Assembly: GCA_903919125.1 (NCBI GenBank)
Contig: CAIXGS010000052.1
Location: forward strand, 1 to 64,000
Length of the DNA stretch: 64,000 nt
Source of the DNA: an uncultured Spartobacteria bacterium
Lineage (GTDB): Bacteria > Verrucomicrobiota > Verrucomicrobiia > Chthoniobacterales > Chthoniobacteraceae
Direction of reading: 5' to 3'
This document shows positions 12,052 to 34,495 of this stretch, piece after piece; positions within the stretch are counted from its first letter, which is position 1, and each line of letters opens with the position of its first letter. Position numbers and translations under genes: made by a program. The notes below the pieces were generated by a model that saw only the letters and a program-made list of their open reading frames with translations, searched no databases and was not told the origin of the DNA.

Positions 12052-13929
12052 ATGAAAAAATACATTCCTCATCTGGTCACCGCGGTATTCGCACTTTGGG
12101 TGGCAGCCGACTGGCGCACACCAAGCGACCGCCCACAGGCCATTCCAGCCAATGCGTTTGCGCGTCTGCCCGTCCTTTCTAACGGCCGCGTTCAACCGCT
12201 GGACTCGCTTGCGCGCAATACGTTGCTTCAAATCCGTGAAAAGCAAAGCGTGCGCACCGGCCCCGGAGAGCAGCCCGCAAAATCGTTATCAGCCGCAGAG
12301 TGGCTCTTGGAAATGTTTTTCCAACAGGAACTTGCCGATACACGGCCAGTTTTCCGTATCCTTCACACCGAAATCAAAGGCCTCCTTGGTCTTGCGCTGG
12401 AAGCAGACCCGGCAAAAAATTCCGATGGCAAACATTTCTCTTGGAATCAGATTCGCGACAAGCTTGGCGAACTCCGGGACGAAGCACGCAGAGCGAGTGC
12501 CGTGGCGGAATCAGCGCGCACTCCTTTTGACAGAGCGGTTTTGCAGCTTTGGAACGCGGTCGGTCTTTACATGCGCACGCAGAACACCGTGCAACCGCAG
12601 GACTCCAAGAACTGGGAGCGCGAGTTGCAGTCTTTCGTGGATGCAGTTCCCGCCGGACGAGAGGCGGCCAAGGCGCAACAAGCTGGGCAGCCGTTTGAGT
12701 CGGGGCCACTCGAGCAGTTGATCCGCCAGTTGCAGCGGGCCTCGGTGATGAAGGAACTTGCCCCAGCCATGATCATCCCGCCGCCGGAGTCTAGCGAAAA
12801 CAAGGAGGGTTGGCTGCGCGTGGACGAGGTGCTGTTTAATCTGGCGCGCGGCGACACGATGCCTCTGGCGCTAAGAGCTTATGCGGCGATGGGGACGGCG
12901 TATCGCGGAAACGATCCCGTGGCCTTCAAGGCGGCGGTGGAACGCTACCGAGGTGAGTTGGGACAAAGCGCGCCAGCCGTTCTTGCGAAGTGCGGACGGG
13001 AGCAATTGTTCAATCACTTGGAACCGTTTTACAAGTGCATCATCCTTTATGTCACTGCGGGGCTATGCGTTATGATTTTCACACTTGCCCCTGAAAAGCT
13101 CGGCTGGCTACGAGACACAGCACGCCTGCTTCTTTTCATGACGCTTGCGGTGCATTCAGCCGGACTGATTTACCGAATGGTTTTGGAAGGACGCCCGCCG
13201 GTGACGAACTTGTATTCCTCGGCGATATTTATTGGTTGGGGAGCGTGCGTACTGGGGTTGGTCTTGGAACGAGTTTGGAAAAATGGGATTGGGGTTCTGG
13301 TGTCTTCCTCGGCTGGCTTTTTGACTTTGATCATCGCACACAACTTGGCGTTGGGCGGCGACACCATGGAGATGATGCGCGCGGTACTGGACACCAACTT
13401 CTGGTTGGCCACGCATGTCGTGGTGGTGACCTTGGGCTACTCCGCGACGTTTGTGGCAGGGTTGCTCGCCGTGTTGTACGTGGTGCTGGGAGTGTTCACC
13501 AAGTCGCTCACGCAGGACATGGCAAAGTCGCTCTCCAAAATGGTTTACGGAATCGTCTGTTTCGCGGCGCTGTTCAGCTTCATCGGCACCGTCCTCGGCG
13601 GGATTTGGGCCGACCAAAGCTGGGGCCGCTTCTGGGGTTGGGACGCAAAGGAAAACGGGGCCCTGATGATCGTGCTATGGAACGCGCTATTTCTTCATGC
13701 GCGCTGGGGCGGGATCGCGAGGGAGCGGGGGTTGATCAGTCTGGCAATTTTCGGAAACGTGGTCACGGCGTGGTCGTGGTTCGGAGTGAACATGCTGGGC
13801 ATCGGCTTGCATTCGTACGGCTTCATGTCGGCGGCGTTCACCTGGCTTATGCTATTTGTCACCACGCAATTAGCTTTGATGGGATTCGCCTCGCTGCCCA
13901 TTCGTTTTTGGAGAAGCGATCTACGCTGA
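12052..13929 (+). CDS. ccsA: CcsA/CcmF-like haem-handling cytochrome c synthase subunit
   Basis: This 625-residue protein is the haem-binding partner of ResB. The conserved tryptophan-rich haem motif WGRFWGWDAKE sits at residues 524-534. It is flanked by multiple membrane spans and by histidine-bearing loops (DTNFWLATHVVVV; GIGLHSYGF) expected to ligate haem. Unlike short CcsA proteins (about 300 residues), it has an N-terminal extension of about 320 residues after one signal-anchor. That extension is a soluble, Glu/Arg-rich, probably helical periplasmic domain starting near 'LPVLSNGRVQPLDSLAR', a feature I associate with long CcsA variants. The ATG lies 3 bases after the resB stop, so the two are translationally coupled. 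Confidence 0.88.
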   Translation: MKKYIPHLVTAVFALWVAADWRTPSDRPQAIPANAFARLPVLSNGRVQPLDSLARNTLLQIREKQSVRTGPGEQPAKSLSAAEWLLEMFFQQELADTRPVFRILHTEIKGLLGLALEADPAKNSDGKHFSWNQIRDKLGELRDEARRASAVAESARTPFDRAVLQLWNAVGLYMRTQNTVQPQDSKNWERELQSFVDAVPAGREAAKAQQAGQPFESGPLEQLIRQLQRASVMKELAPAMIIPPPESSENKEGWLRVDEVLFNLARGDTMPLALRAYAAMGTAYRGNDPVAFKAAVERYRGELGQSAPAVLAKCGREQLFNHLEPFYKCIILYVTAGLCVMIFTLAPEKLGWLRDTARLLLFMTLAVHSAGLIYRMVLEGRPPVTNLYSSAIFIGWGACVLGLVLERVWKNGIGVLVSSSAGFLTLIIAHNLALGGDTMEMMRAVLDTNFWLATHVVVVTLGYSATFVAGLLAVLYVVLGVFTKSLTQDMAKSLSKMVYGIVCFAALFSFIGTVLGGIWADQSWGRFWGWDAKENGALMIVLWNALFLHARWGGIARERGLISLAIFGNVVTAWSWFGVNMLGIGLHSYGFMSAAFTWLMLFVTTQLALMGFASLPIRFWRSDLR

Positions 13930-27807: not shown

Positions 27808-28070
27808 CCATTACGCAACAGATTCCTGTCGAACAGGTTTTGGGACTTGGTTTGCACGAAGGAGACACGCTTCATGTGCTTTCGAGATTGGACTCCTCGT
27901 TTTTGGTGCAGGTTGTGCGTCTTCGTGAAAATGCACCTTCCGCTGGATCCAGTGCGGCAGAGTGGCTTCACACGGCGCGTGGAAGTGTTCACTTGAATGC
28001 AGGAGAAGAAGTTCAGGATCTTCGAATGAGTTACTACTCAGAGAAATATGGCTTTGATAGTCGGATCTAA
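27804..28070 (+). CDS. AbrB/MazE-like antitoxin of a PIN-domain toxin
   Basis: This protein of about 88 residues has an N-terminal half (VEQVLGLGLHEGDTLHVLSR) resembling the swapped-hairpin AbrB DNA-binding fold. Its C-terminal segment WLHTARGSVHLNAGEEVQDL plus RMSYYSEKYG is typical of antitoxins partnered with PIN toxins. The GTG at 27804 is preferred; an ATG at 27729 in the same frame is possible but overlaps the MazF-like remnant. The stop overlaps the toxin start by one base (TAATG), giving translational coupling. Confidence 0.75.
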   Translation: MTITQQIPVEQVLGLGLHEGDTLHVLSRLDSSFLVQVVRLRENAPSAGSSAAEWLHTARGSVHLNAGEEVQDLRMSYYSEKYGFDSRI

Positions 28071-28486
28071 TGCGTGTTTTTTTGGATACGAATATCCTTC
28101 TGGATATTTTGCTGAATCGAGCCGAGCTGTTTGAAGAGAGTTCTGCGGTGATCCTTCTATGTGAGTCTTCACGGCATGAGATGTTTATCGCATGGCACGG
28201 TCTCGCCACGGCTTATTACTTGTTGCGAAGAGGACGAAGTGAGGCAGCTGCCCAATTGGAAGTGGCGAAAATTTTGTCGTGGGCAAAGGTCGCCGAGGTT
28301 AGTGACGCGAGTGCCCGAGAGGCACTCGCGTTAGATTTTGGAGATTTCGAGGACGCGCTTCAAGTGGTCTCGGCGAGCGCGTGCGGGGCAAATTGTATTG
28401 TCACCCGAAACTTATCGGACTTCTTAAAGTCAGCGACAACAGCGCTCACGCCAAGACAGTTTATTGATCGATTTTCAGCAAAGTAG
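28070..28486 (+). CDS. PIN-domain ribonuclease toxin (VapC type)
   Basis: This 138-residue PIN domain has the conserved acidic residues: FLDTNILLDILL with Asp6, DFGDFEDALQ with Asp95, and TRNLSDF with Asp117. PIN toxins are Mg-dependent ribonucleases that cut tRNA, rRNA or mRNA. It is intact in length and paired with the overlapping AbrB-like antitoxin, so this second system in the island looks functional. Confidence 0.88.
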   Translation: MRVFLDTNILLDILLNRAELFEESSAVILLCESSRHEMFIAWHGLATAYYLLRRGRSEAAAQLEVAKILSWAKVAEVSDASAREALALDFGDFEDALQVVSASACGANCIVTRNLSDFLKSATTALTPRQFIDRFSAK

Positions 28487-28506: not shown

Positions 28507-28747
28507 CCGGTAACCCCCCTCAATGCAATAATAGCTCTGGCGGGGCTACGCAAAAGGACTGGCTTTTTGGCCAAGGGAGACCGAAAAGAGGAGGGCAGCG
28601 TTCTGCGCAAAGGTTGAGGTTATCTTTTGTGTGGTAACTCTCTTTAAACAAACCCTCACTAGCAGAATGATGCCTTTTCAACCTCGGCATTTGGATTAAG
28701 CAGCGTTGAAAACGCTTCATCTCCACAAGATTCACCATCCTAATTTC

Positions 28748-29665
28748 ATGCTCCCCCGTCGCACCTTCCTCAAAACCCTCGCCGCTGCAGCCTTGGTTCC
28801 ATCTCTGAGGGCCGCTAGCGAACCCTTTCGATTTCGCTACGTGCTAGCCTCCGCCCTTTACGGTGAGATGCCCTTGGAGACGATTTTGCCGGAAGTGGCG
28901 AAGGCTGGGTGTTCGGCCATCGACATTTGGGGCAAAGTCCACGGCAACCAGCGCGAGCAAATCACAGAGATGGGCGACGATGCCTTCGCCGCGCTTCTCA
29001 CGAAACACGGAGCAAAGCTCGCGGTGAGCACGCGCTATCCGCTGGGTCCGTTTCGTTTGCAGGAAGAGATGGCCTGGGTCAAAAAGCTCGGAGGAAAGAT
29101 GATCGTGGTGGGGATTTCCGGTCCGAAAAACCCCGAAGGCGCCGAGGCTAAGGCCGCGATCCAGAAGTTTTTCGAAGATATGAAGCCTCATGCCGAAAAA
29201 GCGCAGGAACTCGGCGTCACCATCGCCATTGAGAACCATGGAAACTCCACGCTCTCGCACCCAGATTCGCTGCGATACTTTGCGGAGTTCAACCGCTCTC
29301 AGGCGTTGGGGATCGCATTTGCGCCCCACCATTTGCATCAATGGTCGGAGCAGATTCCAACGTTGATTAGGGACTTGGGGGCGAAACAGTTGCCGTTTGT
29401 GTACTTTCAGGAACATTCGGAAGGCTCGCAAAAGAAGATGCCCAAGGAAATTGAGCTCCAACAGTTGCCCGGCTTTGGTGGCGGGCTGGATTATCGCCCG
29501 ATTGTGAAAGCGCTTTCGGACATTCGCTTTACGGGTGAAGTGGAAATTTTCATGCACCCCACTCCTCGCGGAGTCCCCATTTTGCCCACCGCCGCAGAAA
29601 TCACTGCAGCCGTGAACCAATCACGGGCATACATCGAAAAGTGCATCGCTGAAGTGCTCTCATGA
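28748..29665 (+). CDS. Tat-exported sugar isomerase/epimerase-like TIM barrel
   Basis: This 305-residue protein belongs to the xylose isomerase-like TIM-barrel (AP endonuclease 2) superfamily. The leader LPRRTFLKTLAAAALVPSL carries an RRxFLK twin-arginine motif, so it is exported folded, probably with metal bound. Barrel features include AGCSAIDIWGK, VTIAIENHGNSTL (likely metal-ligand Glu) and TGEVEIFMHPT. The first gene of a four-gene unit, it overlaps the cytochrome gene by 4 bases. The substrate is unknown; the context suggests conversion of an oxidised or acylated sugar outside the cytoplasm. Confidence 0.82.
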   Translation: MLPRRTFLKTLAAAALVPSLRAASEPFRFRYVLASALYGEMPLETILPEVAKAGCSAIDIWGKVHGNQREQITEMGDDAFAALLTKHGAKLAVSTRYPLGPFRLQEEMAWVKKLGGKMIVVGISGPKNPEGAEAKAAIQKFFEDMKPHAEKAQELGVTIAIENHGNSTLSHPDSLRYFAEFNRSQALGIAFAPHHLHQWSEQIPTLIRDLGAKQLPFVYFQEHSEGSQKKMPKEIELQQLPGFGGGLDYRPIVKALSDIRFTGEVEIFMHPTPRGVPILPTAAEITAAVNQSRAYIEKCIAEVLS

Positions 29666-31743
29666 GTGCGCGAGCCCTTCTGGGGTTACTCAGCTTAATT
29701 TGGGCGACGCCGCTTCAGGCCGAACCGCTGGTCATCGGGTTCGAACGCTTTAACTCCGAACAGCCCAGCGCAGAAGGTGGCCGACTTCTGTATAACGAAC
29801 TGGGTTGCGTTAATTGTCATGGTGGCACTACCGGCCTGCCCATGCGCCGCGGCCCGCAACTTGCGGGAGTCACCCAGCGGATCCAAGCGGATTGGTTACG
29901 GAACTTTTTAAGCGACCCAGCACGCGCGCATTCGGGTTCCAACATGCCTCAATTTTCCTCCTTAAGCTCGGCTGAAGATGTGGAGGCCGTTCTGCACTAT
30001 TTGGGCGACCTGCCGACAAAGCCCGCAAAGAAACCCAAGAAAGTCGGCCACGTGAATGCCGAGCACGGGAAGGAATTGTTCCACACAATGGGCTGCGTGG
30101 CATGTCATGGGGCAGCGAAGGATTTTCAGCCGCCGGAAGGCACGCCAAAGCCTGAAGACTTCACGTACTCGGCAATCGCTTTTCCTGAGCTACAGCAAAA
30201 ATACGGTTTGCAGACGTTAGCCGAATTCTTGCGAGATCCGTTGCAAACGCGGCCTGACGGGCGGATGCCTCGCATCGATATGGAGGAATCCGACGCGTTG
30301 GATTTGGCGGGGTATTTACTGGAGTTTGCCAGCAGCGACGGTGAATCGGCCCAAAAACTGCCTCCGTTTGCGGTGGATCAGGCGCTTGCGTTGCGAGGAC
30401 GCGGAATTGTCGCGGCGGCGGGGTGCGCGGCTTGCCACGAACTTCCCAAGGAGGTGGGAACCGCCCCTGTGGCGTTGCGAAGCGGAGCGGGCGGGTGCCT
30501 CGAGGGGAATGCGGGACGAAAGTCGCCGCAGTATCAACTTGGCGCAAAACAGCGCGCCTCGTTGAAACTCTATTTGGCTGAACGGGAAAAAGAGCTGCCA
30601 AAAGCTCAGGTGGCGGAACTCACTTTGCAGGCGCTCAACTGTGCGGCCTGCCACGAACGCGACGGGCGCGGCGGCCCAGATCTGGCAAGAAAAGCGTATT
30701 TTCAAGGGGACCATAATCTGGGGGATACCGGCCGATATCCACCGCCGCTTACGGGTGTGGGTCGGAAATTACAGCCGGAATGGCTCAGCGACGTGCTGGA
30801 AGGAAAGGCACGCGTGCGTCCTTATTTGCAGACGAAAATGCCGGTTTACGGAGCGGCGACCAGCGGTTTGGCGGCTCTCCTTTCCAGCGTGGACGCAAAA
30901 ACGCAGGGCGCGTTGCCCGGAGGGGACGATGCGGCTGGGCGCAAGCTGATGGGAACTCAGGGCGGGGTGGGTTGCATTACTTGCCACCGGTGGGGCGGGC
31001 ACGCAGCGCTGGGAATTCAAGCGCTGGATCTGAGTAGCATGGGACAACGGCTGCAGCCCGGTTGGTTGCGAGATTATCTTATAAACCCAGCCGCGTATCG
31101 CCCTGGCACCCTGATGCCGTCATTTTGGCCGGGGGGCAAAGCGGCTAATGGTGAAATTCTCGGGGGTGATACGGAGCGGCAAATCGCTTCGATTTATGCG
31201 TTCGCAAAAAGCGATAATGGAGAACCTGAGGGTTTTCCTGCCGTAGACGGAGGCGAATTCGAACTCAAGCCGCTGGCGCAGCCGATTGTGCAACGCACGT
31301 TTTTTGCCGGTGTTGGGACGCATGCGATTCTGGTCGGCTTTCCGCATGGCGTGAATCTCGCCTACGACGGCAAAACAGGACGGCCCGCTCGTGCGTGGCG
31401 GGGGCGGTTCTTCGACGCGTACACGACGTGGTTTTCGAGGTTCGCCCCATTTGAAAAACCGTTGGGCGACTCTGTGTTAAAATGGCCTTCGAGCGAAGGG
31501 GAAAACGTCCGATTTGAAGGCTACCGACTGGATGCTCAAAAGGTACCCGTTTTCCTTCTGAAAGTAGGCGGTTCACCAGTCGCGGACCGTTTTGACGCCA
31601 TCGACGGAGGTCTGAAGCGCACGCTCACCGGAACCGTCGCGGCATTGAACGCACTCGCCGTGACGCACCCCGACGGAGTGGTCGTACAGGAGGAAAATTC
31701 GGATTCAAAAGAGACGCGGATTTTTACGTATTTATGGAAATGA
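29662..31743 (+). CDS. Exported pentahaem c-type cytochrome
   Basis: This 693-residue protein has a signal peptide (ALLGLLSLIWATPLQA) and five CxxCH haem-binding motifs: CVNCH (Cys49), CVACH (Cys145), CAACH (Cys255), CAACH (Cys327) and CITCH (Cys438). Most are followed by distal Met-containing segments such as GSNMPQF and DGRMPRI, suggesting His/Met-ligated mono-haem domains in series. The last 190 residues lack haem motifs and are beta-rich. It would pass electrons from a periplasmic dehydrogenase to a terminal oxidase. Haem attachment would depend on the ResB/CcsA pair. It overlaps both neighbours by 4 bases. Confidence 0.88.
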   Translation: MSARALLGLLSLIWATPLQAEPLVIGFERFNSEQPSAEGGRLLYNELGCVNCHGGTTGLPMRRGPQLAGVTQRIQADWLRNFLSDPARAHSGSNMPQFSSLSSAEDVEAVLHYLGDLPTKPAKKPKKVGHVNAEHGKELFHTMGCVACHGAAKDFQPPEGTPKPEDFTYSAIAFPELQQKYGLQTLAEFLRDPLQTRPDGRMPRIDMEESDALDLAGYLLEFASSDGESAQKLPPFAVDQALALRGRGIVAAAGCAACHELPKEVGTAPVALRSGAGGCLEGNAGRKSPQYQLGAKQRASLKLYLAEREKELPKAQVAELTLQALNCAACHERDGRGGPDLARKAYFQGDHNLGDTGRYPPPLTGVGRKLQPEWLSDVLEGKARVRPYLQTKMPVYGAATSGLAALLSSVDAKTQGALPGGDDAAGRKLMGTQGGVGCITCHRWGGHAALGIQALDLSSMGQRLQPGWLRDYLINPAAYRPGTLMPSFWPGGKAANGEILGGDTERQIASIYAFAKSDNGEPEGFPAVDGGEFELKPLAQPIVQRTFFAGVGTHAILVGFPHGVNLAYDGKTGRPARAWRGRFFDAYTTWFSRFAPFEKPLGDSVLKWPSSEGENVRFEGYRLDAQKVPVFLLKVGGSPVADRFDAIDGGLKRTLTGTVAALNALAVTHPDGVVVQEENSDSKETRIFTYLWK

Positions 31744-33227
31744 AACCGCTTTTCCTTTTCTTGGTTTCACTCACGGCAACCGCCCTCGCGGGGACGCCCT
31801 ATGAAATTCAGGACATCCTCACCGGCAACTCGCCCTCGGCCTCCAGAAGCAAGGAATGGAAGCCCGGTTCGGGAATTCCGCTAGAAGTCAGCGGGATGGA
31901 CTGGACGGCGGACGGCAAGTTGGCCCTAGCAATTCGCAAAGGGGAAGTCTGGCTTGTGGACGGCGTCCTAAGTCACGAGGCGGACAAAGTGAAATTTAGC
32001 CTCTTCGCCTCCGGTCTCCACGAGCCGCTAGGGTTGCTGCGCGACGGGGACAGTCTTCTGGTCACCCAACGCACGGAGCTCACCCGCCTGCGCGACACTC
32101 GCGGGGACGGTTTTGCAAATGAGTACCTCACCGCGGGCCACGGCTGGAATGTTTCCGGGTCTTATCACGGGTATGCTTACGGTCCCAAACGGGATGGAAC
32201 GGGGCAGCTTTGGGTGACGTTAAACGTCGATATGGGTGAATTTAGCGACAACAAAGCCGCTTGGCGTGGCTGGGCCGGTATTATCGACTCGAAGGGCGAG
32301 TTTCAGCCCATGGCCGCCGGAATGCGTTCCCCCTGCGGGCTCGGTGCAAACTTGGCGGGCGACATGTTTTGCGTGGATCAACAGGGAACCTGGGTGCCCA
32401 CCACGCCCATTTATCACCTCAGAAAAGGCGCATTTTTTCTAAACCCCGAGGGCATCGCCTCCCAGAATTTACCCGAATCGCCACTAAAACTATCCGCGAA
32501 AGTCCCCGAAAAAATCCCCTATCCAGAAGCCATTAAAGCGCTGCCAGAGATGTGCCCTCCTGCGGTCTGGTTGCCCTACAACAAAATGGGGCGCAGCGGC
32601 ACCGACTTGGCTGTTTGCGATGCAACCGGGAAGTTCGGTCCCTTCGACGGCCAAATGCTTGTGGCAGAATTCACCGACGCGAAGATCAGTCGGGTTTTTA
32701 TGGAAAAGGTGGACGGCGAGTACCAAGGGGCGGCGTTCCCCTTTTTGCGCGGCTTTGCCTCGGGGATCGTGCGGCTGCTTTTCGCCCCGGACGGCACGTT
32801 AATGGTCGGCATGACGAGTCGCGGCTGGTCTTCGCTTGGCACAAAGGCGTACGGCCTACAGCGGGTGCGTTGGAACGGCGAAATGCCTTTTGAAATCCGG
32901 GAAATGCGAGCCCTGCCGGACGGCTTTGAATTGGTGTTTACCCAGCCAGTTGACGCAAAAGCCTGTGGGACAGCCGCCGCATACTCGATGACGAGCTACA
33001 CCCATCTTTACTCAGGCGCTTACGGGAGCGAGGAAATTCAACTCGAAACGCATCCCATCAGCGGAGTCACTGTGAGTCCCGACGGTTTGAGCGTCCGCTT
33101 GAAAGTAGATGGCTTGCGCGCCCTATACGTCCATGAATTACACGCCGATGGGGTGCGCTCTGCGGCGGGCGCGAAGCTCGATCACGCCGACGCCTATTAC
33201 ACCTTGAATCGCATTCCCAAAAAATGA
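31740..33227 (+). CDS. Sorbosone/glucose dehydrogenase-like secreted beta-propeller
   Basis: This 495-residue exported protein (signal MKPLFLFLVSLTATALAG) has beta-propeller blades like the L-sorbosone dehydrogenase/PVC 'membrane-bound dehydrogenase' group. Examples are SGMDWTADGKLALAIRKGE, HEPLGLLRDGDSLLVTQR, and RSPCGLGANLAGDMFCVDQQG. It lacks the CxxCH domain that many relatives carry; the neighbouring pentahaem gene may supply that electron acceptor. I chose the ATG at 31740, which gives a 4-base ATGA overlap, over the one at 31734. PQQ or another cofactor cannot be confirmed by eye. Confidence 0.8.
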   Translation: MKPLFLFLVSLTATALAGTPYEIQDILTGNSPSASRSKEWKPGSGIPLEVSGMDWTADGKLALAIRKGEVWLVDGVLSHEADKVKFSLFASGLHEPLGLLRDGDSLLVTQRTELTRLRDTRGDGFANEYLTAGHGWNVSGSYHGYAYGPKRDGTGQLWVTLNVDMGEFSDNKAAWRGWAGIIDSKGEFQPMAAGMRSPCGLGANLAGDMFCVDQQGTWVPTTPIYHLRKGAFFLNPEGIASQNLPESPLKLSAKVPEKIPYPEAIKALPEMCPPAVWLPYNKMGRSGTDLAVCDATGKFGPFDGQMLVAEFTDAKISRVFMEKVDGEYQGAAFPFLRGFASGIVRLLFAPDGTLMVGMTSRGWSSLGTKAYGLQRVRWNGEMPFEIREMRALPDGFELVFTQPVDAKACGTAAAYSMTSYTHLYSGAYGSEEIQLETHPISGVTVSPDGLSVRLKVDGLRALYVHELHADGVRSAAGAKLDHADAYYTLNRIPKK

Positions 33228-34495
33228 GCTTTCGTCACCTCGTAAAACCCATCTTCGCACTCTCCCTCGCGATACTCGCCCCGCTCGCTCTCCAAGCCAC
33301 TGAACCCGCCAAAATCGGTCCGTGGGACATTCAGGCACTCCAGCAAGTTCCCGCGATGCATTGGGTAGACCAAACTAAGTCGGTTCACTCGCTGCTCTAC
33401 ACAGGCGAGGAGTTCCAAGGCCACGCAACGGAGGTTTTCGCCTTCTATGCCTCGCCCGCCACGCTCGGTGACGCGAGTGCAGGCACGAAATTTCCAGGGG
33501 TCGTGCTCATTCATGGCGGGGGCGGAACAGCTTTCGCGGACTGGGCGTATTTATGGGCGAAACGCGGATACGCAGCGATTGCGATGGATTTGTCGGGGTC
33601 GCGTCCGCCTGATCCGACTTTCGATCCCGCCACGGGCGCACCCGTCGGGCACCAGTCTGATGCGAAGGTTCGAACGCGCTTGCCCAACGGCGGCCCCAAC
33701 CATGGGCACCCCGAAAAGTTCGATTCCATCGGCAGTGGAATTAGCGATCACTGGCCGTTTCATGCGGTAGCTTCTGTGATGCGGGCGCATTCGCTGTTGA
33801 GAAGTTTCGCCGAAGTGGATGCCGAGCGCACCGCCGTTACGGGGATTAGCTGGGGCGGGTACACGACGTGTCTGGTGGCGTCCGTGGACGCGCGTTTCAA
33901 GGCGGCCGTGCCAGTTTACGGTTGCGGCTTTTTGTTCGAGGGCGAATCCGTCCAAAAGCCTTCGATCGTTAAACTGGGCGAGCTTCGCCAAAAGTGGATC
34001 CACGAATACGACCCCAGCAGCCTCCTTCCCAAATGCCGTGTCCCTATTTTATTCGTCAACGGCACCAACGACGTCCATTACCCGTTGGACAGTTACATGA
34101 AGAGCTTCGATTGCGTGCCTGGATTTAAGCAGATGCGCATTCAGGTAAACATGGGACACGGCCATCCCCCAGGCTGGGCGCCACAGGAAATCGGCATCTT
34201 CATCGACTCGTTTTGCCGTGGAGGCGACGCCTTGCCGGTGATTGGTAAATTGAGCGTGGAGGGCGAAGAAATCCGTGCGGCGTACACGGCGAAAACTCCG
34301 CTCAAGGAGGCGAAGCTCAACTATACTACGGACAGCGGGCTGCGCTCTAAACGCCAGTGGAAAAGTGTGCCGATGAATTTGAGGAATAGCGTCATCAGCG
34401 CCCCTAAGCCACCGGCGGACGCGAATACTTGGTTTTTGACGGCGACGGATGAACGGGGGGCGATGGTAAGTTCCACCGTGCAATTCGCGCCTTAG
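33224..34495 (+). CDS. Exported alpha/beta-hydrolase esterase (acetyl xylan esterase-like)
   Basis: This 423-residue protein has a signal peptide (HLVKPIFALSLAILAPLALQA) and an alpha/beta-hydrolase core. VVLIHGGGGTAF forms the oxyanion strand, GISWGGYT carries the nucleophile Ser, NGTNDVHYP the Asp and MGHGHPP the His. The length and architecture fit secreted carbohydrate-esterase or dienelactone-hydrolase-like enzymes of PVC bacteria. The last 90 residues form an immunoglobulin-like tail. It overlaps the sorbosone dehydrogenase-like gene by 4 bases, completing the four-gene unit. Confidence 0.83.
   Translation: MSFRHLVKPIFALSLAILAPLALQATEPAKIGPWDIQALQQVPAMHWVDQTKSVHSLLYTGEEFQGHATEVFAFYASPATLGDASAGTKFPGVVLIHGGGGTAFADWAYLWAKRGYAAIAMDLSGSRPPDPTFDPATGAPVGHQSDAKVRTRLPNGGPNHGHPEKFDSIGSGISDHWPFHAVASVMRAHSLLRSFAEVDAERTAVTGISWGGYTTCLVASVDARFKAAVPVYGCGFLFEGESVQKPSIVKLGELRQKWIHEYDPSSLLPKCRVPILFVNGTNDVHYPLDSYMKSFDCVPGFKQMRIQVNMGHGHPPGWAPQEIGIFIDSFCRGGDALPVIGKLSVEGEEIRAAYTAKTPLKEAKLNYTTDSGLRSKRQWKSVPMNLRNSVISAPKPPADANTWFLTATDERGAMVSSTVQFAP

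Follow-up and report, generated by a model that had tools for sequence, protein, structure and literature searches.

Gene content and conservation of the operon

The window, a 64,000-nucleotide stretch of the genome of an uncultured Spartobacteria bacterium, contains four co-directional genes whose products carry export signals (judged by eye for cytc5, propeller and esterase) and which are joined by three ATGA overlaps, all as described in the original prediction and upheld when we re-read the open reading frames and junctions. The genes and their junctions, the latter read from the sequence, are:

28748..29665, + strand: isoT, 305 aa, Tat-type signal and AP_endonuc_2 (xylose-isomerase-like) TIM barrel (Pfam PF01261, 4.4e-18); a longer alternative start, TTG at 28706, is in frame and open
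29662..29665, + strand: ATGA overlap isoT/cytc5; an in-frame start is kept at this 4-nt position at 48 of 58 isoT–cytc5 junctions (loci)
29662..31743, + strand: cytc5, 693 aa, c-type cytochrome, exported, five haems, DUF6797-like domain at the C-terminus (Pfam Cytochrom_C and CBB3)
31740..31743, + strand: ATGA overlap cytc5/propeller; in-frame start kept at 44 of 48 cytc5–propeller junctions (loci)
31740..33227, + strand: propeller, 495 aa, exported, six-bladed, sugar-dehydrogenase-like, haem-less, TIGR02604/DUF7133-related; second ATG at 31734 as alternative start
33224..33227, + strand: ATGA overlap propeller/esterase; also in the sister MAG G009 (locus L053)
33224..34495, + strand: esterase, 423 aa, exported alpha/beta-hydrolase, PhoPQ_related/AXE1/DLH-like (Pfam)
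33842..33856, + strand: GISWG nucleophile elbow of the esterase, read from the sequence

The significance of the overlaps was judged by their conservation; crude open reading frame calling in the window merged or missed genes and provides an unreliable baseline. A sigma-70 promoter scan of the operon returned 0 sites against 2.8 expected in shuffles and is uninformative for the operon.

We scanned an isoT alignment against genome contigs, which gave 243 relatives, and retrieved the best 80 of these 243; a further 57 related genomes were screened for a propeller orthologue, at loci picked on propeller similarity alone, although some of the 80 isoT loci belong to these same genomes. Verrucomicrobiota and Planctomycetota supplied the 80 retrieved loci, together with one MAG labelled Bacteroidetes; all three of isoT, cytc5 and propeller are present in 49 of the 80, and many of the others stop at a contig edge. 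DJ-1/PfpI lies upstream of isoT in 41 of the 49 three-gene loci, and the order classes of the 80 loci additionally place a divergent XylR-type regulator in 25 of the three-gene loci. Across Verrucomicrobiota the conserved order is XylR(-) DJ1 isoT cytc5 propeller. The isoT–cytc5–propeller arrangement is also found in a Phycisphaeraceae MAG (L119), the operon is present in Chthoniobacter flavus Ellin428, and one genome (G011) has the same partners in a different order (cytc5, propeller, isoT, DJ1). The conserved unit comprises DJ-1/PfpI–isoT–cytc5–propeller, to which a divergent XylR-type regulator is frequently added; a literature search found nothing on this operon.

Among the 57 relatives, 14 encode both isoT and the propeller orthologue, two isoT only, none the propeller only and 41 neither, a co-occurrence whose Fisher value is inflated by kinship and which is not significant within the genus. 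In the loci inspected, DJ1-isoT frequently occurs without cytc5 or propeller, and isoT may therefore have a role wider than the oxidative operon. Single loci or small groups depart from the common layout: TonB-receptor-sized genes separate DJ1 from isoT in four Opitutales loci, the domain having been tested in L068, and the operon at L085 includes a sulfatase. A PSCyt1-PSCyt2-PSD1 protein is encoded near the operon in genome G002 (L041:2470-5472). The operon of the window genome has no linked DJ-1 and no linked XylR, and may have been rearranged at the DJ-1 position; the genome holds two unlinked DJ-1 copies, one of them in L150 near an XylR-type regulator. A PIN-domain gene, possibly the toxin of a toxin-antitoxin pair, occupies the DJ-1 position of relatives in the window (28070-28486).

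The esterase is linked to the operon only in the window genome and the sister MAG G009 (L053) in the 80-locus census, and is a recent, local and lineage-specific addition; we rejected it as a core component on this count of two genomes. Its orthologues co-occur with the propeller (10 of 14 genomes versus 1 of 43), a pattern that is confounded by kinship and not significant within the genus. The four-gene module originally predicted is accordingly reduced to isoT, cytc5 and propeller as its conserved part, with the DJ-1/PfpI and XylR-type partners having been overlooked. The prediction had staked itself on the gene order not being unique to this strain; the order is shared for three genes and nearly unique for the esterase, so that deacylation of an acylated sugar as a core step would rest on two genomes and a weak phyletic co-occurrence. 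Elsewhere, an esterase orthologue (64%) lies one gene away from a propeller–cupredoxin pair (G005:C3, L156:5226-10493). Three Pirellulaceae- and Planctomycetaceae-labelled MAGs (L102, L110, L114) encode an alpha/beta hydrolase downstream of isoT, the L110 copy being a BD-FAE esterase, and this isoT–hydrolase association is separate from that of the window esterase.

The propeller and its putative electron carrier

At the sequence level the propeller is a distant member of known families, scoring below the family cut-off of NCBIfam TIGR02604 (31.1 bits versus 122.2; 1.6e-7) and matching only DUF7133 in Pfam, also sub-cut-off (5.6e-5), with no match to GSDH (PF07995). Its AlphaFold2 model (pLDDT 85) includes an extra C-terminal domain at approximately residues 382-495. 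Foldseek and VIA-align comparisons of the model placed the PQQ aldose sugar dehydrogenase/sGDH group in the top six entries, with Z scores of 27.6-29.9 for the Asd group (2ism 29.9, 3a9g 29.6, 2g8s 27.6) and at most 23.9 for AA12, sGDH, SMP30 and NHL. Searching PDB sequences with a profile of the propeller yielded no meaningful match; hhalign to five Asd chains, with the mis-stranded row L027 excluded from the input, aligned residues 42-371 (probability 96, E 1e-9). Two putative active-site residues can be placed:

32166..32168, + strand: H143 of the propeller, putative catalytic base corresponding to sGDH His144; invariant in A2 and A3, displaced by 3 residues in hhalign
32325..32327, + strand: propeller R196 in GMRSPCG, aligned with GIRNPQG (Arg228 of sGDH) in the alignment and by hhalign

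In the GIRNPQG motif the Arg aligns with R196 while Asn is replaced by Ser and Gln by Cys, and RIRD aligns with GIVR; the alignment to the Asd chains showed neither the N, nor the Q, nor the RIR pair that contribute to the PQQ site. The roles of His144, Arg228 and Asn229 in sGDH have been described (PMC6881810). The propeller resembles the PQQ aldose sugar dehydrogenases (Asd/YliI 2g8s, 2ism, 3a9g, 3das) and sGDH in its six-bladed fold and its profile homology, and one His and one Arg of the active site may be kept as well. It differs from them in the altered Arg motif, in an RIR pair that the alignment does not show and in the extra C-terminal domain, and further in having a dedicated haem or copper partner and, in most hosts, no pqqC.

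The gene pqqC is absent from the window genome; when 195 genomes were sampled across the phylum, 5 had it above cut-off, and these belong to a single family. Two of the 57 relatives encode it, one of them (G026) matching the Chthoniobacter flavus record by locus, and G026 is the one searched module genome that has it. Because most hosts lack pqqC, PQQ use by them would require import, or else the propeller would depend on another cofactor. Matches to pqqE in the window genome are weak and sub-cut-off, as they are in all 14 control genomes, and are uninformative.

The cytochrome encoded beside the propeller had been predicted to be a pentahaem protein that could accept its electrons. Exactly five CXXCH motifs are present in cytc5, and its orthologues retain five:

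29806..29820, + strand: haem motif 1, CVNCH, read from the sequence
30094..30108, + strand: haem motif 2, CVACH, read from the sequence
30424..30438, + strand: haem motif 3, CAACH, read from the sequence
30640..30654, + strand: haem motif 4, CAACH, read from the sequence
30973..30987, + strand: haem motif 5, CITCH, read from the sequence
31219..31734, + strand: C-terminal DUF6797-like domain of cytc5, from profile search, shared with the cupredoxin carriers that adjoin paralogous propellers

A profile built from this domain matches both pentahaem and haem-less carriers. With a permissive threshold, Pfam DUF6797 (PF20601) picks up 8 of 19 carriers (best 3e-5), cytc5 of the window itself being unmatched, and hhalign of the carrier domain to the DUF6797 of a fused protein is weak, as is the single-sequence link. 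A literature search found no paper that mentions DUF6797.

Among non-redundant propellers without a CXXCH of their own, 53 of 59 adjoin a same-strand DUF6797-like carrier; the remaining six are no more than three bases from a locus end, so that all 53 testable propellers have such a neighbour, whereas the three propellers with their own CXXCH have no adjoining DUF6797-like carrier. This set is biased to the retrieved loci, although the loci from the 57 genomes were chosen on propeller similarity alone. Paralogous propellers in the window genome adjoin a cupredoxin protein rather than a cytochrome (L029), and all 13 zero-haem carrier entries, some of them from overlapping loci, have a copper motif of the C-x-x-PGH-x4-M type, with Pfam cupredoxin matches backing five of the scanned carriers. 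A further paralogue in the window genome (G000:C76 243894; locus L031) is a single chain of 1488 aa that runs DUF6797, propeller, five CXXCH, which suggests the same three modules in a different order.

The constant carrier neighbour and the single-chain paralogue support the passage of electrons from the propeller to its partner carrier, as does the exchange of haem for copper. The original prediction correctly described the propeller as missing the haem domain that its fused relatives carry, and its proposal of the cytochrome as acceptor, like that of a co-expressed exported redox module, is supported; the DUF6797-like domain on cytc5 had escaped it. The PVC-type heme-binding CxxCH proteins (TIGR02604/DUF7133, with GSDH, HEAT and cytochrome c) have a related propeller, with scores below cut-off, but the propeller chain in the window is haem-less and its carrier is encoded separately, with five haems plus a DUF6797-like domain. 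The PSCyt/PSD planctomycete-type proteins are likewise expanded PVC cytochromes that are carbohydrate-linked and unassigned in function (PMC5615132), but the window genes have no PSCyt or PSD domain. PVC bacteria encode many propeller and cytochrome proteins without an assigned function, and the fixed pairing of propellers with exchangeable haem or copper carriers offers a testable role for DUF6797, a domain of unknown function.

The TIM barrel and its putative metal site

The assignment of isoT as a Tat-exported, isomerase-like TIM barrel holds for its fold and for an RR motif that is invariant in ten orthologues, while its unusual active site had been overlooked. Pfam PF01261 is matched at 66.3 bits (cut-off 31.1) and TAT_signal under its cut-off (E 0.0017). 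The structure model (pLDDT 92) is a TIM barrel of the IolI/epimerase superfamily (best Z 23.8; IolI 1i60, Z 23.6), with fold matches that include AtHYD (8ro4), DgpC and CGD. By HMM alignment to 1i60, only one of the four canonical metal ligands, E162, is kept:

29231..29239, + strand: isoT E162, the one canonical ligand retained, and H164, where strand 5 ends; neither varies among 37 homologues
29327..29329, + strand: isoT H194, invariant in 37 homologues; the canonical Asp position is A192
29411..29413, + strand: isoT E222, invariant in 37 homologues; the canonical His position is F220
29555..29557, + strand: isoT H270, invariant in 37 homologues; the canonical Glu position is F268

Each of H164, H194, E222 and H270 is two residues beyond a canonical ligand position, and together they are candidates for a relocated metal site. 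By sequence alignment, isoT lacks the metal site that 3-keto-glycoside β-eliminases/hydratases have at the canonical positions. With LgdB1/LgdB2, AtOGE, AtHYD and DgpC/CGD, isoT shares the TIM-barrel family and a gene position next to a sugar dehydrogenase, here a predicted one (PMC7676230, PMC10628242), but it differs from them in its Tat export, in the cytochrome of its operon and in a ligand set apparently shifted by two positions.

Proposed function

Beyond the conservation, coupling, fold, carrier swapping and fused paralogue, which were computed directly, we propose, with slightly better than even confidence, that the operon encodes an extracytoplasmic oxidative catabolic module in which a sugar is oxidised and the TIM barrel processes the product. 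The propeller would dehydrogenate a sugar or glycoside outside the cytoplasm and hand its electrons to the pentahaem cytc5, which its C-terminal DUF6797-like domain may keep beside the propeller and which would relay them to the respiratory chain. The oxidised product, a ketone or lactone, would then be isomerised, dehydrated or cleaved by the Tat-exported TIM barrel, and in this lineage only, the esterase may strip acyl groups from the substrate. The operon of Chthoniobacter flavus Ellin428 is a concrete case for asking whether PVC bacteria oxidise sugars extracytoplasmically, and with which cofactor.

Two specific forms of this proposal differ in the carbon that is oxidised, and we regard both as tentative. 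In one, the propeller or a partner would produce a 3-keto-glycoside, and isoT would be a periplasmic β-eliminase or hydratase like LgdB1, AtOGE and AtHYD. Related AP_endonuc_2 TIM barrels catalyse β-elimination or hydration of 3-keto-glycosides (PMC7676230, PMC10628242), and the fold matches of isoT to AtHYD, DgpC and CGD are in keeping with such a role. A sister operon in the window genome (G000:C60, L150:5309-9285 and 12328-13488) encodes DJ-1 (85%), a Tat TIM barrel, a GMC oxidoreductase and Gluconate_2-dh3 with the XylR-type regulator nearby, so that a GMC dehydrogenase stands in place of propeller and cytochrome; its barrel, unlike isoT, appears to retain Asp, His and Glu. GMC and Gluconate_2-dh3 also lie near DJ1-isoT in the Bacteroidetes-labelled MAG (L115), and a Tat-exported Gfo/Idh adjoins DJ1-isoT in L059; therefore different dehydrogenases accompany the same partners. 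The GMC/Gluconate_2-dh3 architecture of the sister operon is that of the lactose 3-dehydrogenase LacABC. Periplasmic 3-keto routes are known: in Caulobacter and relatives, LacABC oxidises the sugar in the periplasm, where a second enzyme is proposed to act on the resulting keto product (PMC9007349). The window operon differs from this system in dehydrogenase fold and second enzyme, and the L150 operon is the closer analogue. A C3 route is, however, at odds with sGDH-type enzymes, which oxidise C1, and with the loss of the canonical Asp/His/Glu ligands from isoT.

In the other form, to which we give the same limited credence, the propeller would generate a lactone or aldonate that isoT isomerises or dehydrates toward a sugar-acid pathway. 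This agrees with the propeller having the fold of C1-oxidising aldose dehydrogenases and with the neighbourhood of DJ1-isoT in L115, which includes HpcH/HpaI aldolase, RraA-like and enolase-superfamily (MR_MLE) proteins; however, that neighbourhood is a single MAG contig, and none of those sugar-acid genes adjoins the window operon.

More speculatively, and in our judgement unlikely, the propeller may use a cofactor other than PQQ, with the DUF6797-like domain docking it to interchangeable pentahaem or blue-copper carriers and the TIM barrel relying on a relocated metal site, such that these operons would represent PVC-wide modular extracytoplasmic dehydrogenases.

An improbable alternative is that the propeller is a glycosidase, hydrolysing or redox-neutrally cleaving a glycoside while the carrier has a part in regulation, assembly or an unrelated electron route. 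The one PVC propeller relative for which we found an activity test is Lac161_ORF7, which comes from a Chthoniobacter-assigned cosmid and combines a TIGR02604 propeller with HEAT and CXXCH. The purified protein is reported to be a β-galactosidase that hydrolyses lactose with a Km of 1.8 mM (PMC5342196), and most module genomes lack PQQ synthesis. However, that report measured lactose hydrolysis only, the nearest folds are dehydrogenases, and every testable stand-alone propeller adjoins a redox carrier, the haem/copper swap of which a hydrolase would not need. Lac161_ORF7 is also a relative of a protein encoded at L151:992-4363.

Finally, we rejected on context a role in sulfur oxidation, which is very improbable. 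The 693-aa cytc5 exceeds the cut-off of the NCBIfam SoxX equivalog TIGR04485 (82.8 bits versus 61), but its best match is restricted to residues 49-116, one of several haem domains; no sox-like gene was seen in the inspected operon loci, and the operon partners are carbohydrate-type proteins. Automatic annotation may, on this score, label cytc5 a sulfur-oxidation cytochrome.
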